From Thermoleophilia bacterium (GTDB lineage: Bacteria; Actinomycetota; Thermoleophilia; RBG-16-64-13), in NCBI GenBank assembly GCA_016929985.1, contig JAFGIH010000318.1:1-5293 (forward strand): a DNA stretch of 5,293 nt. The letters are read 5' to 3'. The notes below the pieces were generated by a model that did no database searches, had not been told where the DNA came from, and was given only the letters and a program-made list of their open reading frames with translations. Each line of letters opens with the position of its first letter. Position 1 is the first letter of the stretch. Shown here one piece after another: positions 1 to 5,293 of the stretch. The translations under genes were made by a program, and so were the position numbers.

Positions 1-1358
1 AGGTGGGCAAAGAGGTCGGCGCACATCTTCTTGACGCGGTCGGGCATGAGCAGCTTGTCTTCGATGTCCGCGGCGCCGTACTTCTCGCGGGCCTCCCCGA
101 CGCCCATCTCCCGGCCCGTGCGGGCGTCGGTCAGCGTCTTGCCCTTCCCCGCGAGGTCGTTCCGCGAGACGCCGGACTCCCGCTCGTTGGCCCTCTTGTT
201 GTCGTGGAAGAGGTCGAAGCGCTCGATCTCGCAGGCCGCGAGATACCCGTCCTCGATGCCCTGGGCCATGTCGTACTCGTAGACCGGCTCGCCGAAGTAG
301 CGGAGGTTGTCGGCGGTGACCTGCGCGTCGGCCCGGGCCTCCTTGCTCTTCCCGGCGAACTCGATCTGGCGCGGCGTGGCGGTCAGACCGACGTGCACCG
401 CGTTCGGGTTCCGCGTCAGGACCTGGGACCACTTGCCCCACGCCGACCGGTGGCATTCGTCGATCACCACGTGGCTGAAGTAGTCCTCAGGGTAGTGGGC
501 GAGCAGGAAGTTGGCGCTGGCCTCGTCGGTGTCCACGTCCAGGGTCTGGTAGGTGGCGACGTGGACGCGGGCGTTCCGGGCGTGGTTGGAGCCGTCCGGT
601 TCGGCGAAGACCTCGGCGGCATCGGAGCCGAAGGCGGCGCGGAGCGCGCCCAGCCCCTGGCTGCGCAGCTCGTCCCGGTCGCAGACGAAAAGCGCCCGGC
701 GAAGCTGCCCGGCGTCGGCGATGCGCCGCAGCAGGTTGACGGCGATGAAGGTCTTACCCGCGCCGGTGGCCAGTGAAAGCAGGGCGCGCTTGGGCTCGCC
801 CCGCTTCTCGCAGGGGGCGACCTTCTCCAGGACCGCGCGGATGGCGGCGTCCTGATAGTAGCGGCGCGTGGCCTCCCCGCCGTGGTAACGCGCCAGGAGC
901 GGCTTGGCGACCGCGTCGGCCAGCCCGAAGCCCACGTGCTCCTCGTAGCGCGCGCGGAGGTCGGCCGGCGTCGGGAACTCGGAGAGCGCCCGAGGGTCGG
1001 TGGTCTTGCCCGTGAGGCGGTCGAACTCGACGAAGAGGTGCCCGTTCGAGGAGAAGACGAACGGGACATTGAGGCGCTTGCAGGCGGCGTAGGCCTTGCC
1101 CTGCTCCAGGCCGTGGCCCGGGGGGAGGTCCTCGGCCTTGGCCTCGATGAGGCCGACGGCCACGGGCTGGGTGTCGATGTTGACCCGGACGCGGAGGGTG
1201 TAGTCCACGCGGCCCTTGGCCCGCTTGCGGGGCTTGCCGTCCACGACCTCGATGGCCCCGGCGGTCTCCTCGCGGCGGATGAGGTCCTCCGTCCAGCCGC
1301 GCGCGTGCAGCGCGGGGTCGATCAGCTTGGCGCGGGTGTCCGATTCGCCGAGGCCCAT
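1..1358 (-). CDS. hsdR: Type I restriction enzyme R subunit (HsdR), N-terminal 452 residues, 3' end outside window
   Basis: HsdR is the ATP-dependent DNA translocase and endonuclease subunit of type I restriction systems; with HsdM and HsdS it cuts unmodified foreign DNA in the cytoplasm. The visible product starts MGLGESDTRAKL. An N-terminal RecB-type nuclease domain (about residues 1-150) shows D52, the E72-A-K74 catalytic pair in LIEAK, and the QxxxY motif typical of HsdR (Q86...Y90). A superfamily 2 helicase domain follows: YYQDAAI near 167, Walker A ATGAGKT at 197-203, TYQTL at 269-273, the DECH box at 300-303 (VVIDECHRS), and motif III LTATP at 325-329. The layout resembles EcoEI-type R subunits, typically around 800 residues, so roughly half is present. 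The ATG at 1358 is preceded by GGAG (1369-1366) with a 7-base spacer. A strong promoter lies just upstream. Nearly every codon ends in G or C, unlike the divergent plus-strand genes. hsdM and hsdS are not in the window and may lie further left. Confidence 0.93.
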   Translation of the reverse strand, partial: MGLGESDTRAKLIDPALHARGWTEDLIRREETAGAIEVVDGKPRKRAKGRVDYTLRVRVNIDTQPVAVGLIEAKAEDLPPGHGLEQGKAYAACKRLNVPFVFSSNGHLFVEFDRLTGKTTDPRALSEFPTPADLRARYEEHVGFGLADAVAKPLLARYHGGEATRRYYQDAAIRAVLEKVAPCEKRGEPKRALLSLATGAGKTFIAVNLLRRIADAGQLRRALFVCDRDELRSQGLGALRAAFGSDAAEVFAEPDGSNHARNARVHVATYQTLDVDTDEASANFLLAHYPEDYFSHVVIDECHRSAWGKWSQVLTRNPNAVHVGLTATPRQIEFAGKSKEARADAQVTADNLRYFGEPVYEYDMAQGIEDGYLAACEIERFDLFHDNKRANERESGVSRNDLAGKGKTLTDARTGREMGVGEAREKYGAADIEDKLLMPDRVKKMCADLFAH

Positions 1359-1393
1359 CTTCTCTCTCCGGCGCTGACCTGGAGGTTGGGGGC

Positions 1394-1421
1394 ATTGTAG
1401 GGCTGGAGAGGAGGAGGTCAA
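1394..1421 (-). promoter_or_regulatory. Sigma70-type promoter for hsdR
   Basis: On the minus strand a -35 box TTGACC (1421-1416) and a -10 box TACAAT (1399-1394) are separated by 16 bases. Each hexamer differs from consensus at one position. Transcription would begin near 1387, giving a leader of about 29 bases before the hsdR ATG at 1358, with the GGAG ribosome site inside it. The call rests on sequence match and position only. Confidence 0.6.
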
Positions 1422-1454
1422 ATGCGGGTCAGGGTGACGCTGCACTTGACGCCA

Positions 1455-1487
1455 CTCCAACGATGTGGACCATCCCAGCCGTTGGAG
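1455..1487 (+). promoter_or_regulatory. Inverted repeat covering the ribosome-binding site of the first operon gene
   Basis: CTCCAACG at 1455-1462 is perfectly repeated inverted as CGTTGGAG at 1480-1487, with a 17-base spacer. The last four bases, GGAG (1484-1487), are the best Shine-Dalgarno sequence for the ATG at 1496 (8-base spacer). In RNA the element would fold into a hairpin that hides this site; in DNA it could be an operator. Which of these applies, if either, cannot be told from sequence. An 8-bp match of this kind in a short region is uncommon but possible by chance. Confidence 0.4.
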
Positions 1488-1495
1488 ATGATACG

Positions 1496-1654
1496 ATGAC
1501 GAATTTCGCCAATTCGCCCTGGCCCTCCTTCTACTCCGCCGCCGATGGCTTCCGCCATCTTGCGCCCTGGTCTGCGATGGGCGAGGAGGACGTGTTCGGC
1601 GTCCAGAACCCGGCCACGGGCGAGCCCTTGTGCGGTTCGGCTGAGGAGTTCTGA
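1496..1654 (+). CDS. 52-aa ORF resembling the truncated N-terminus of a DUF7309-like hypothetical protein
   Basis: The product begins MTNFANSPWPSFYSAADGF and contains FRHLAPWSAM near residues 19-28 and DVFGVQNPATGEP at 32-44. From memory, the combination of an LAPW segment followed by D-x-FGVxxPxTGE marks the N-terminal part of a family of conserved hypothetical proteins several hundred residues long (I associate it with DUF7309; the number needs checking). There the motif normally continues into a glycine-rich hydrophobic stretch. Here it instead runs into LCGSAEEF and a stop, so the gene looks cut off after about 44 family residues. The ATG at 1496 is preferred over the in-frame ATG at 1463 because GGAG lies 8 bases upstream of it. 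Its TGA shares its A with the ATG of the nuclease gene, so translating it may help load ribosomes on the nuclease. It could be a degenerate remnant now serving as a leader, or a real small protein. Confidence 0.5.
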   Translation: MTNFANSPWPSFYSAADGFRHLAPWSAMGEEDVFGVQNPATGEPLCGSAEEF

Positions 1655-2517
1655 TGGGCGCAAAGGCATGTTTCCGCCGAGGGCTCACCGACGAATTCTT
1701 CGCGGCGCTGAACGCCGGGCGGTTTTCCAGCTTGCTGCGCGCCGTCATAGACGGCGGGCTGGACCTGCAAATCCGCGAGGACTATCTCGACATCTACCAT
1801 CGTGGGCTTGCGGTCCTGAAGCTGGCACGGCATCGCAGGCCTCCGGAGTACCGGGCGACCATCCATCACAAGTTCCTCAAAGGCGTTTCTCTGCCAGCGC
1901 GGTGTTCAACGGGCTCTAGTAAGTACACAACGTTCTCCGCAACCGACGCCTTCGTGGCCGACTACATGGCGCACCTGCCACAGGTTCTGGAGAACGCAAG
2001 GGAGTACTCTTCTCCTGAAGCCGAGGTAGAGGAGCGGATGATTCAGGACAGCTACACGGCGCCCTCGCCGGTCGTCTTCATTGACCGACAGGTCCAGGTT
2101 CACGGAGTAAGGAAGAAGGCGGACCTGCTCGGCGTGAACCGGCTGACGGGGGCCGCTGTCCTTACCGAACTCAAGCGCGACTTGGACGCCAGGATTCAGC
2201 ACCTGATGTCTCAGATTGCCGACTACCATGCGGTCCTGGTCGGCAGGGACGGACGGCTCAGGCGGGAGGTCGCCGACTCCTATCGCCTCGTGACCCGCCA
2301 GAAGAAGCTCCTCGGCCTGTTGCCGGACGCCGCGTTGCTGTCTGACGAAGCCCCCGTGGTCGAGTGCTTGCTCGTGCTCCACCGCTACAACCTCAAGAGC
2401 AAGCTCCTGGGGCGGCTGAAGGACTCCGCCCAGCAGAGCCCGCTCAAGACCAAGTTGGTCCTACTTCCCAAGGACCAGTACGTGCTCCCGCCGCCGGAGC
2501 AGTGGGAGCGCCTGTGA
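1654..2517 (+). CDS. PD-(D/E)XK superfamily nuclease (RecB/NucS-like), 287 aa
   Basis: Predicted cytoplasmic metal-dependent nuclease. The catalytic half shows the full superfamily signature in order: an acidic helix with E125/E126 (AEVEERMIQD), D157 in RKKADLLG, the E172-L-K174 pair in VLTELKRD, and Q187 in LMSQIADY. The spacing and the DLLGxxxxxGxxxxxELKR pattern recall NucS- and RecB-type nucleases. The N-terminal part (about 1-90) holds REDYLDIYHRGLAVLKL near 41-57 and a HHKFL segment at 71-75, a pattern I have seen in uncharacterised nuclease-like proteins but cannot name. No membrane segment or signal peptide is apparent. The ATG at 1654 is fixed by an in-frame TGA at 1642 and by GAGGAG at 1643-1648 (5-base spacer). 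It overlaps the preceding stop by one base, and its own stop overlaps the next start (GTGA). Codon choice is less GC-rich at third positions than in hsdR. Substrate (DNA or RNA, any modification) cannot be predicted. Confidence 0.75.
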   Translation: MGAKACFRRGLTDEFFAALNAGRFSSLLRAVIDGGLDLQIREDYLDIYHRGLAVLKLARHRRPPEYRATIHHKFLKGVSLPARCSTGSSKYTTFSATDAFVADYMAHLPQVLENAREYSSPEAEVEERMIQDSYTAPSPVVFIDRQVQVHGVRKKADLLGVNRLTGAAVLTELKRDLDARIQHLMSQIADYHAVLVGRDGRLRREVADSYRLVTRQKKLLGLLPDAALLSDEAPVVECLLVLHRYNLKSKLLGRLKDSAQQSPLKTKLVLLPKDQYVLPPPEQWERL

Positions 2518-3470
2518 CCCCCCATGCAACGGTCCTCGCTCACGGCGACTTGGACGGCATGGTCTCCGCCATCCTGCTGTTGGGGCGCTTGCAGCCCGAT
2601 ACGCGAGTCATCATCACCAACGGCGCTCGACTGCACCGCGAGTTGGCCGGGCTTGCCGACAGCCAGGAGCCGGTCAGCGACATCTATGTGGTAGACGTGC
2701 CGCTTGCCCTACAGGAGGCCGCGTCCGTCGCGGCGGCGATGAGGCGGGTGGGCGAGCGGGGGGCGAAGGTCCACGTCTACGACCATCATCTGGGATGGGA
2801 ACAGGCGGAGAGCAGCACGGGCCTTCGGGAGGCTTGTGCCATGTTCATCGTGGATACCCGGAAGACCACGGCGGCAGTCCTGGTTCACCGGCACTTCCTG
2901 GGGGGCGCACCGGAAGGGACATCCTGGCTCCGCCTCCTGAGCGAGAAAGGCGACTCGGCAGATCCCGGCATCCGGCAACGGTTCGGCATCCTCGCCGCAC
3001 TGATGGACCGCCGACACTGGAAGCTCACGGAGCCGACACTGAAGGCGCTGGCTTGCGGAGCACCGCATGCCAAGGAACAAGAGCGGCTGGCCGACTGGTA
3101 TTACAACGAGCACCTGCCACGGGAACGAAAGCTGGCCGAGGAAGCCGAGATTCTGACGACGAGACAGGACCGCAGGCTGGCATGGTTCGACCTGCGGCAG
3201 GAGCAGGGCCACTATCACCTCGCCAAGCTCGCCGCCGAGATTCACAGGGTGCAACTGACGGCCACGGTGGACCGCAAGGGCGTCCTGCTTGGCGGGGAGT
3301 CCATAGACAAGGGCGTGGACCTCCAGCCGCTTCACGGGCGGCATGAGCATCAGGGCGTTGCGTTCTCCGTCGCCGGACACAAGAGCCCGGTCCGGTTCGC
3401 GCCGCTGGACGGCAAGGTGTCCGACGAGTTAGTTGCGGCGGTCAGGGCGTTCATCCTGGAGCGAGTGTGA
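2514..3470 (+). CDS. DHH-family phosphoesterase (RecJ/NrnA-like), 318 aa
   Basis: DHH enzymes use two metal ions to hydrolyse phosphodiester bonds in single-stranded DNA, nanoRNA, cyclic dinucleotides or related molecules. The protein shows motif I HGDLDG at 10-15 (canonical HxDxDG), motif II aspartate D61 in YVVDVP, the DHH triad D90-H91-H92 in VHVYDHH, and a probable motif IV aspartate in EKGDSAD (144-150). A smaller C-terminal region (about 225-318) contains LLGGES near 258-263 and GVAFSVAGHK at 281-290, which may be a divergent form of the DHHA1 substrate-binding domain and its glycine-rich GGGH-like loop. The size fits stand-alone NrnA-like enzymes rather than full RecJ. GTG at 2514 is chosen as start because it overlaps the nuclease stop as GTGA, has GGGAG at 2504-2508, and puts motif I ten residues in, as usual. 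A longer frame back to 2364 would overlap the nuclease by about 150 bases. The pairing with the nuclease suggests sequential nucleic-acid degradation, but the substrate is unknown. Confidence 0.82.
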   Translation: MTPHATVLAHGDLDGMVSAILLLGRLQPDTRVIITNGARLHRELAGLADSQEPVSDIYVVDVPLALQEAASVAAAMRRVGERGAKVHVYDHHLGWEQAESSTGLREACAMFIVDTRKTTAAVLVHRHFLGGAPEGTSWLRLLSEKGDSADPGIRQRFGILAALMDRRHWKLTEPTLKALACGAPHAKEQERLADWYYNEHLPRERKLAEEAEILTTRQDRRLAWFDLRQEQGHYHLAKLAAEIHRVQLTATVDRKGVLLGGESIDKGVDLQPLHGRHEHQGVAFSVAGHKSPVRFAPLDGKVSDELVAAVRAFILERV

Positions 3471-3517
3471 CGGCGCTGGAGAGCTTCCGGTGGGAGTTGT
3501 TCGAGAGGTTCATGTGA
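3467..3517 (+). other. 16-codon translationally coupled mini-ORF in the gap after the DHH gene (possible gene remnant)
   Basis: A GTG at 3467 overlaps the DHH stop in the GTGA arrangement and has GGAG at 3458-3461 (5-base spacer). It reads MTALESFRWELFERFM and stops at 3515-3517. Coupling and ribosome site are as good as those of the real genes nearby, and the peptide looks like the start of an ordinary protein. It could be the leftover 5' end of a deleted third gene, a leader peptide, or chance. There is no evidence that it is translated. Confidence 0.25.
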
Positions 3518-3520
3518 AGC

Positions 3521-3526
3521 AGGAGG
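3521..3526 (+). promoter_or_regulatory. Strong Shine-Dalgarno that sets the start of the DUF1841-like gene
   Basis: AGGAGG, the full anti-16S complement core, sits 8 bases before the ATG at 3535. It favours that ATG over the in-frame GTG at 3514 and TTG at 3433, the latter of which would overlap the DHH gene. Confidence 0.7.
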
Positions 3527-3534
3527 AGCGGGAG

Positions 3535-3912
3535 ATGGACGAATACAACCCGGAGCAAGCCCCCGACGCCACCGCGTGGCTGGAGTTGGACGAGGGCGAG
3601 CGGATGATTCTGGTCGCGGACTACCACAAGCGCGAGAAGGTGAAACTCCCGAACTGGAGACTGCACGCGGCGATCCACACCGCGGTGGAGAACCAACTGG
3701 CCGAGGGGCTCCCGGTCGTCAGGGATGCCCTCCAAAGGCTGATGGGCGAGGGGCTCGGTCGGCACGACGCCGTCCGCGCCATCGGCTCGGTGCTGGCCGG
3801 GCACATGCACCGCGCATTGCAGCCGGACGCCCACACCCAGCAGACGAACGAGCGGTACTACCAGGAACTGCGGGAGCTTACCGCCGAGGGCTGGCGGAAG
3901 CAGGCGGAGTAG
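3535..3912 (+). CDS. DUF1841-like protein, 125 aa
   Basis: A small, charged, predicted cytoplasmic and mainly helical protein. It begins MDEYNPEQAPDATAWLELDE and continues with GERMILVADYHKRE (21-34), then LPNWRLHAAIHTAVENQLAE (38-57), RLMGEGLGRHDAVRAIG (68-84) and a final helix ending GWRKQAE. The pattern of a proline followed by spaced histidines (H44, H48) and a glutamine (Q54), then G-L-x-RHDAxxAIGSVL, recalls the DUF1841 family, whose function is not known to me. The histidines H31, H44, H48 and H77 with E52 could bind a metal; this is only a suggestion. The gene is 64 bases downstream of the DHH gene, the largest gap in the operon, and has its own strong ribosome site. The next gene follows after 20 bases. 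Confidence 0.65.
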   Translation: MDEYNPEQAPDATAWLELDEGERMILVADYHKREKVKLPNWRLHAAIHTAVENQLAEGLPVVRDALQRLMGEGLGRHDAVRAIGSVLAGHMHRALQPDAHTQQTNERYYQELRELTAEGWRKQAE

Positions 3913-3932
3913 CCGTCGAGGAGCGTCGGACC

Positions 3933-4607
3933 ATGCCGGAACCGAAAACGCAGCCCTTCAAGAAAGGCAACTCGGTCAAGGTCAAGGCCGGGGTGATGTG
4001 CCCGGACCACAAGGAACTGTGCATCGGCGGCTGGCAGGGCCGGATAGATGAGGTGCACGAGGAGACCGTGGATATCCACTGGGACAGCCCTACGCTCAAG
4101 GCCATGCCCGCCGAGTTCGTCACCCACAGCGAGGAGCACGGGCTCTCCTTCGCCGTCATGGGCCTCAACCATGCCGAGGTCGAGCCGGCCGAACCGCGCG
4201 ACTCGGCGAAGGAAGCCGAGGACCTGGCGGTGGAGATGGAGAACCGGTGTTACTGGCTCGGCGAGGGCAAGGAGGGCCGCAGGATTCATGCCGTCGTGGG
4301 ACTCATGGACCCGGACGACGAGATAGCCATGTTCGAGGCCTGGAGGGCCCACTTGAAGAAGGCCCTCTCGTTTCCCTTCGACGCCGAGGTTTCCGAGTTC
4401 CAGGAAGGCGGTGCCGTGCGCCAGGGGGACAAGGTATCTGTACGCGAGCTTCTGCCCGAGGTTGACGAGGTGTGGGGCGTGTTCGTGAAAGTGCGGCGCG
4501 GCGGGCGGGACTTCGAATTCCCCCTGTGCGAACTGAAGGCCATCGGCAAGAAGACCCCGAACTATGACCCGGTCAGCGACTACGCCGTCTGGTATGCCAA
4601 CAAGTAG
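3933..4607 (+). CDS. Hypothetical protein with a CcbP-like (calcium-binding) C-terminal domain, 224 aa
   Basis: A predicted soluble two-part protein. The C-terminal half (about 115-224) contains IHAVVGLMDPDDEIAMFEAW (118-137), ALSFPFDAEV (144-153), RQGDKVSV (163-170), WGVFVKVRRGGRDFEFPLCEL (181-201) and a final YDPVSDYAVWYAN (211-223). This FPF-AEV, GD-V-V, FPL-L, DYAVWFAN-type pattern matches, from memory, the family named after the cyanobacterial calcium-binding protein CcbP, a small acidic beta-barrel fold. The N-terminal part (about 8-65) reads like an SH3/KOW-type barrel, with GNSVKVKAGVMCPD, GWQGRIDEV and VDIHWDS. An acidic linker (about 82-105) joins them. No EF hand is present; calcium binding is assumed only from family naming. 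The ATG at 3933 has GGAG at 3920-3923 with a 9-base spacer; the open frame further upstream overlaps the previous gene and is not used. It lies 10 bases before the next gene. Confidence 0.6.
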   Translation: MPEPKTQPFKKGNSVKVKAGVMCPDHKELCIGGWQGRIDEVHEETVDIHWDSPTLKAMPAEFVTHSEEHGLSFAVMGLNHAEVEPAEPRDSAKEAEDLAVEMENRCYWLGEGKEGRRIHAVVGLMDPDDEIAMFEAWRAHLKKALSFPFDAEVSEFQEGGAVRQGDKVSVRELLPEVDEVWGVFVKVRRGGRDFEFPLCELKAIGKKTPNYDPVSDYAVWYANK

Positions 4608-4949: not shown

Positions 4950-5293
4950 ATGCCAAGACTGGTTCACTGCTCCATTCTCGACATCGACCTGGACTACTTC
5001 AACCTCGCGGACGACCCTGTCCAAAGGCTGCGGGAGCTTCTGGCATGGGCCGGGCGTCCGGTGGACTTCAGCGTGGACAAGCATCACCACGCCCTGAGAC
5101 GTTGGCGGGCGTCGGTCAAGCGCGGCAGGCTGGCTGCGCCGACGCATGTCCTTCATGTTGACGAGCACCACGATATGATGGACACGAGGGCGTCGCCGAA
5201 CATCGCCAACTTCATCTACCACGCCATGCGGCAGTGGCCCGGATGCCGGGTCCATTGGCTGGTAGACGAGCCGATAGATTCGCCGGAGGCGTG
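4950..5293 (+). CDS. UPF0489-family protein (arginase-fold, peptide-arginase-like), N-terminal 114 residues, 3' end outside window
   Basis: The visible part begins MPRLVHCSILDIDLDYFNLA and carries two features of the UPF0489 (C5orf22-like) family: an aspartate-rich ILDIDLDYF strand (D11, D13, D15) and HVDEHHDMMD at 69-78, a metal-binding strand of the arginase/deacetylase fold type. Some members of this family act as peptide arginases that turn arginine into ornithine in ribosomally made peptides; most are uncharacterised. No precursor peptide gene or other peptide-modification enzyme is visible here, so that role is unproven. An additional histidine cluster lies at 45-47. The ATG at 4950 is 5 bases after the previous stop; GGAGG at 4931-4935 is rather far (14 bases), with a weaker AGG closer. 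At least half of the protein probably lies beyond the right edge. Confidence 0.65.
   Translation, partial: MPRLVHCSILDIDLDYFNLADDPVQRLRELLAWAGRPVDFSVDKHHHALRRWRASVKRGRLAAPTHVLHVDEHHDMMDTRASPNIANFIYHAMRQWPGCRVHWLVDEPIDSPEA

Follow-up and report, generated by a model that had tools for sequence, protein, structure and literature searches.

The question raised by this locus is whether two overlapping genes, one for a PD-(D/E)XK nuclease and the other for a DHH-superfamily phosphoesterase, act together and, if so, to what end. The genes lie in a stretch of 5,293 nucleotides from a Thermoleophilia bacterium (contig JAFGIH010000318.1 of assembly GCA_016929985.1; the whole stretch is henceforth referred to as the window), in which a sequence-only reading had proposed an undescribed defence module beside a type I restriction gene. 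The nuclease gene (1654..2517, forward strand, ATG start) specifies 287 amino acids, with an N-terminal alpha/beta domain at residues ~1-120 and a C-terminal nuclease domain at ~121-280, and the phosphoesterase gene (2514..3470, forward strand, GTG start) specifies a protein of 318 amino acids that belongs to DHH clade A. Both open reading frames (ORFs) could be read and the coupling that had been noted between them is borne out: bases 2514-2517, GTGA, are common to both genes. We give about an even chance to the view that the pair is an accessory nuclease of two components, probably with a role in defence: the PD-(D/E)XK protein would cut, and an interchangeable exonuclease or phosphoesterase would process the products. 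This view is founded on the gene pair itself, its conserved active sites, recurrent adjacency, the presence of two DHH clades and an unrelated fold as partners, a patchy distribution and several defence-gene neighbours.

Homology searches yielded 27 nuclease clusters and 34 DHH clusters (the window's own counted in each), with matches far beyond chance. The complete E/D/ExK/Q site that had been ascribed to the nuclease is upheld by the aligned relatives, all 24 of which have E122, E126, D157, E172-x-K174, Q182 and Q187. The HxDxDG and DHH motifs claimed for the second protein are likewise retained: H10-x-D12-x-D14-G15 is present in 29 of the 29 rows that cover this end of the protein (one row is without it), D61 and D90-H91-H92 are kept in all 30 aligned rows, and position 150, tentatively assigned as the fourth metal-site aspartate (D150), is aspartate in 23 of the 30. 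The DHH fold spans the whole chain of the window protein, which scores 19 bits against the Pfam DHH model PF01368 and so falls below the curated cut-off of 28.1; precomputed annotation assigns PF01368 to some of the DHH relatives. One nuclease relative, P0054, is a 491-amino-acid protein in which most of the nuclease is joined to unrelated sequence; it may reflect a gene fusion, an insertion or a join made in assembly.

We next consider how widely the nuclease-DHH pair occurs. Strong DHH hits, defined as 60 bits or more, were obtained in five (G001, G002, G249, G003 and G449, at 60 to 474 bits) of 683 genomes, 291 from one phylum and 392 from another, and in all five the nuclease gene lies directly upstream. 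Because G001 and G003 have identical DNA across the 600 bases tested and may carry one and the same element, we count, apart from the window, four cases as independent. Seven other bacterial genomes gave weaker DHH hits (21 to 31 bits) and nine archaeal loci gave distant DHH relatives; at none of these 16 loci was a nuclease-family ORF present in the sequence covered (2 to 3.5 kb for some, a flank of ~1.5 kb for several). A further class search of 397 genomes returned only the pair genome already known. Thus the nuclease-DHH pair is rare. It is not confined to this genome or its close relatives, as nuclease identity falls to ~20% among the adjacent pairs; in the most distant pair, L027, the nuclease is 20-26% and the DHH protein 23-28% identical to those of the four DHH-A pairs compared, and the divergence of this pair argues against a curiosity of close relatives. 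When the window's own cluster is set aside, eight of 26 nuclease clusters occur on a metagenome contig of the same size as that of a DHH cluster, an indirect sign that the two share a contig (P0036/P0002, P0037/P0004, P0038/P0003, P0045/P0010, P0057/P0025, P0047/P0073, P0049/P0106 and P0052/P0094). The members of P0036/P0002 also have consecutive locus tags, and P0057/P0025 is locus L001 and is hence directly confirmed. For the other 18 nuclease clusters this crude contig-size test gave no DHH match.

The DHH partners fall into two distant clades, A and B, and the nucleases do not follow this division. The pair at L026 joins a window-like nuclease to a DHH protein of clade B, the clade to which the DHH protein of L027 belongs. 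Compared with the window, the nucleases of L026 and P0047 are 43% and 53% identical, respectively, whereas their DHH proteins are only 33% and 30% identical; compared with L027, the DHH proteins are 48% and 53% identical and the nucleases 19% and 23%. In a maximum-likelihood tree of 35 nucleases, which has several long end branches and in which three of the five DHH-B labels rest on contig-size matches, a single clade for the five DHH-B-paired rows was rejected (log likelihood lower by 83.9, p-AU 2.85e-61). It thus appears from the sequence comparisons that nucleases have exchanged partners between the DHH clades. Clade B is frequent in environmental sequences: a search at E up to 1e-3 gave 106 hits, of which the last few are more distant.

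The sequence-only reading had treated nuclease and DHH protein as a unit. The pair does recur, but the DHH protein is not an obligatory partner, since in many relatives its place is filled by an RNase J-like metallo-beta-lactamase (MBL). A profile built with divergent nucleases retrieved more family members in Planctomycetota, without DHH; at L050, L052 and one of the two nuclease copies of L054 the adjoining gene is an MBL with beta-lactamase-fold and RMMBL domains. Comparison of two alignments without a common row (hhalign) matched MBL-partnered and window-type nucleases with probability 99.7 and E 4e-25, and a single BLASTP comparison of the window and L052 nucleases gave 30% identity over 238 columns (E 3e-14), so that we regard the MBL-partnered nucleases as true relatives of the window's. 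A tblastn search of plasmids with the L054 MBL returned 19 records, of which nine were read: a nuclease-family ORF lies beside the MBL in six (L059 from Rhizobium phaseoli, L060 from Ochrobactrum, L061 and L063 from Sphingomonas, L062 from Cereibacter and L067 from Cupriavidus) and is absent there in three (L064 from Prevotella, L065 from E. coli and L066 from R. leguminosarum). The reverse tblastn search, with two of the MBL-partnered plasmid nucleases, gave seven distinct records, namely the six known plasmids and a second R. phaseoli plasmid; MBL adjoins the nuclease in all six records read, and the seventh has the same length and hit coordinates as one that was read. A nuclease search of 203 genomes added three loci (L075, L076 and L077, the L077 nuclease being 89% identical to that of L075), each with an MBL neighbour. 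The HxHxDH and SGH motifs are present in nine of nine partner MBLs aligned, and the nearest solved structures to the L054 MBL are EF2904 (E 1.5e-23) and RNase J.

Overall, the gene next to the nuclease could be read in 18 independent loci, and in 16 of these it encodes a DHH or MBL partner. In this tally close relatives were counted once (L003 with L001, L077 with L075, and L051 with L050, 98% identical), and the six plasmid loci were first reached through MBL, the nuclease queries then recovering the same ones; L051, L053 and L055 reach a contig edge on the side of interest. Five of the 18 are DHH-partnered (the window, L001, L002, L026 and L027) and 11 MBL-partnered (L050, L052, the second L054 copy, L059, L060, L061, L062, L063, L067, L075 and L076). 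The spacing between nuclease and MBL genes ranges from an overlap of ~280 bases in L061, where the starts are uncertain, to a gap of 631 bases in L060.

Further genes were observed around some of these loci. On the Pimelobacter plasmid of L030 (8323-10978) the gene of the nuclease relative follows, after 28 bases, one for a TM0106 RecB-like nuclease, a possible third type of partner. A small protein of ~125-160 amino acids with the pattern GIFW...HYR, its copies related by eye, is encoded beside the MBL in four proteobacterial plasmids (L059 4516-4992, L060 4558-4953, L061 6256-6630 and L066 3555-3995, the last without a nuclease) and is a possible third component. At two Planctomycetota loci, L054 (12574-15423) and L075 (10182-13524), there is a conserved block in which the MBL follows two further genes, 56% and 68% identical between the loci, with one extra small gene in the L075 block.

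The presence of unrelated catalytic folds in one slot suggests that both provide the same kind of enzymatic activity, the simplest candidate being the cleavage of phosphodiester bonds in nucleic acid. Exonucleases that act at 5' ends are found among RecJ-type DHH as well as RNase J-type MBL enzymes, which favours a cut by the PD-(D/E)XK protein followed by processing by its partner. In the mechanism that we propose, the PD-(D/E)XK protein would be the constant part, recognising the target via its N-terminal domain and making the first cut; the second phosphodiesterase would be the variable part, RecJ/NrnA-like DHH here and RNase J-like MBL elsewhere, and would trim or degrade the cut ends so that the cut could not be mended. 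The likeliest purpose would be a restriction-like defence against incoming nucleic acid. The activities, the order of cutting before degradation, the substrate and the defensive role are all predictions from sequence. Replacement by an unrelated fold can be viewed as a natural experiment, as traits common to the DHH and RNase J-like MBL proteins point to the job of the second component, and the chemistry of the module becomes testable through partner exchange.

The proposed role in defence leads to the gene neighbourhood. Recognised defence genes lie within ~15 kb of six of 20 independent loci (the 18 tallied plus L053 and L055), a count drawn from contexts of unequal length by a non-uniform scan and with no matched control. 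The six are the window, with its HsdR gene; L002, where a gene for a TmtA-model ATPase (95-4525; TmtA stands for Tiamat) overlaps the nuclease start; L054, with HsdR ~6 and 14 kb from its two nucleases and also a Cas4-like gene; L055, where the nuclease stands last of four genes on one strand (159-4183), after those for a C5 methylase, a type II restriction enzyme (E 1.3e-153) and Vsr, with the far side cut off as the contig stops; L059, with a type IIG restriction gene; and L075, with an OLD/GajA-like and UvrD/GajB-like (Gabija-like) pair ~5 kb away. In 11 host genomes, type I R genes matching PF04313 were found in seven, ~18 genes (merged from 20 rows) in ~59 million bases, which puts the chance of such a neighbour within 20 kb at ~1 per cent or less for that class; this rate is an undercount of type I R genes, because the window's own HsdR scores 17 bits against PF04313, below the cut-off of 25.1. 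The closeness to defence genes put forward earlier thus holds in so far as restriction, TmtA-like or Gabija-like genes stand near some related loci, but no hsdR neighbour was recognised at the other DHH loci, where no scan aimed at hsdR was made. We regard the defence-gene context as suggestive only.

The restriction gene of the window itself had been described as lying beside the pair. It does encode a genuine EcoAI-type HsdR (3..1358, reverse strand; NF046051 E 6e-79, PADLOC REase_I E 3.7e-53), truncated by the window edge, and since the window does not contain the whole gene its score falls short of the curated NF046051 cut-off. However, it starts at 1358, ~295 bases upstream of the nuclease, and runs out of the window on the opposite strand, so that hsdR is a divergent neighbour outside the nuclease-DHH operon; no match to hsdM or hsdS was found among the window proteins scanned. 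Between hsdR and the pair lies an ORF of 63 amino acids (1463..1654, forward strand). Its match to the DUF7309 model (PF23988, E 4e-7) is limited to the initial 37 of 170 positions, its stop overlaps the nuclease start as TGATG, and it is probably a gene remnant at the edge of the module. On the same strand as the pair, 3' of the DHH gene, follow a gene with a weak DUF1841 match, a CcbP calcium-binding-like gene (3933..4607, the match spanning residues 126-220 of 224), one of no known kind, and the start of a UPF0489 or FlmR-OhkR peptide-arginase-like gene (4950..5291). As these genes are single and of unrelated kinds, the region downstream has the look of an accessory gene island.

In addition to the uneven basis of the defence count, several observations weigh against the proposal of a two-component nuclease. 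Two of the 18 tallied loci have neither DHH nor MBL: L030, which is the one read of two Pimelobacter plasmids of its type found with the L027 nuclease as query, and the first copy in L054, where bases are masked on one side. Nuclease and MBL genes are convergent in four loci (L054, L075, L076 and L077, three of them independent), the MBL ORF of L076 is incomplete and close to the end of its contig, and the DHH gene of L002 (5397-6349) contains one in-frame TGA, so that this copy may be decayed or misassembled. L026 and L050 lie amid ordinary chromosomal genes, as judged by eye from translations. No relatives turned up in the phage-record and viral-contig searches made, and PADLOC gave no match for four neighbours tested in L060 and L063, nor for the L050, L052 and L054 MBLs. 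Finally, DHH-DHHA1 and MBL enzymes also include phosphodiesterases of nucleotide signals, and the partner swap is thus no proof of an exonuclease role.

This last point bears on a signal-controlled nuclease, in which the PD-(D/E)XK effector would be controlled by a nucleotide second messenger, or by a short oligonucleotide product, that the DHH or MBL enzyme clears. We think this unlikely: neither a nucleotide cyclase nor a sensor of the CARF type was seen beside the pair in the loci read, although no systematic search for them was made, and the MBL partner, nearest to EF2904 and RNase J and with an RMMBL (RNA specificity) domain, suits nucleic acid better than a small signal. An accessory DNA-repair pair, in which DNA with damage or mismatches would be cut by a NucS/EndoMS-like endonuclease and resected by a RecJ-like enzyme, is in our judgement improbable. 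A DHH pair in only five of 683 genomes and nuclease relatives on plasmids are not what one expects of housekeeping repair, the window nuclease gives no hit to the NucS_C Pfam model at E up to 1, and the Vsr gene of L055 belongs with a restriction system. We also hold it to be very doubtful that the partner restrains the nuclease, as in a toxin-antitoxin pair. The genes do overlap on one strand, and some contexts are those of mobile elements, with transposase genes near L003 (by eye) and L062, but both partner types have complete catalytic motifs, which an inhibitor would not need, the genes are convergent at three independent related loci, and L030 and one L054 copy are without a DHH or MBL partner.

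We retain the two-component nuclease as our working proposal. A broader form of it, to which we would give somewhat less than an even chance, is that of a widely scattered, undescribed defence family that combines one PD-(D/E)XK endonuclease with non-homologous exonucleases, recruited from two DHH clades, from the RNase J-like MBLs and perhaps from others such as the TM0106 RecB-like enzyme at L030, which would serve interchangeably to destroy the cut nucleic acid.

When compared with known systems, the statement that no named system has exactly this pair stands in the searches made: neither of the two window proteins has a PADLOC match at E up to 1, and literature searches found no such nuclease module described. 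Among the 24 nuclease alignment rows PADLOC matches are all weak, to PDC-S11 in five (best E 5.8e-4), PDC-S18 in two (best 7.2e-5) and PtuB in one (4.1e-3), and the wider nuclease family also gave one weak match to a type II restriction model (E 1e-3). The NucS/EndoMS mismatch endonuclease is among the closest known systems, but its profile (PF01939) does not match the window nuclease. The closest DHH enzymes are the PF0399 DHH domain, RecJ/RecJ-Cdc45, archaeal RecJ2, PAP phosphatase, PggH and NrnA; the window DHH protein is 11-15% identical to the ten best structures and differs in having a PD-(D/E)XK nuclease as its partner. The RNase J family and EF2904 resemble the MBL partner of the relatives (in the HxHxDH and SGH motifs and the L054 match), which is not present in the window. 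Unlike type I restriction-modification, the window pair shares no operon with hsdM, hsdS or hsdR. In contrast to Hachiman (HamAB), Shedu (SduA) and other nuclease-based defence systems, the window nuclease has no helicase or ATPase partner but a DHH phosphoesterase, or an MBL in its relatives, and, if defensive, the module would represent a nuclease-plus-exonuclease architecture that is missing from the PADLOC catalogue.
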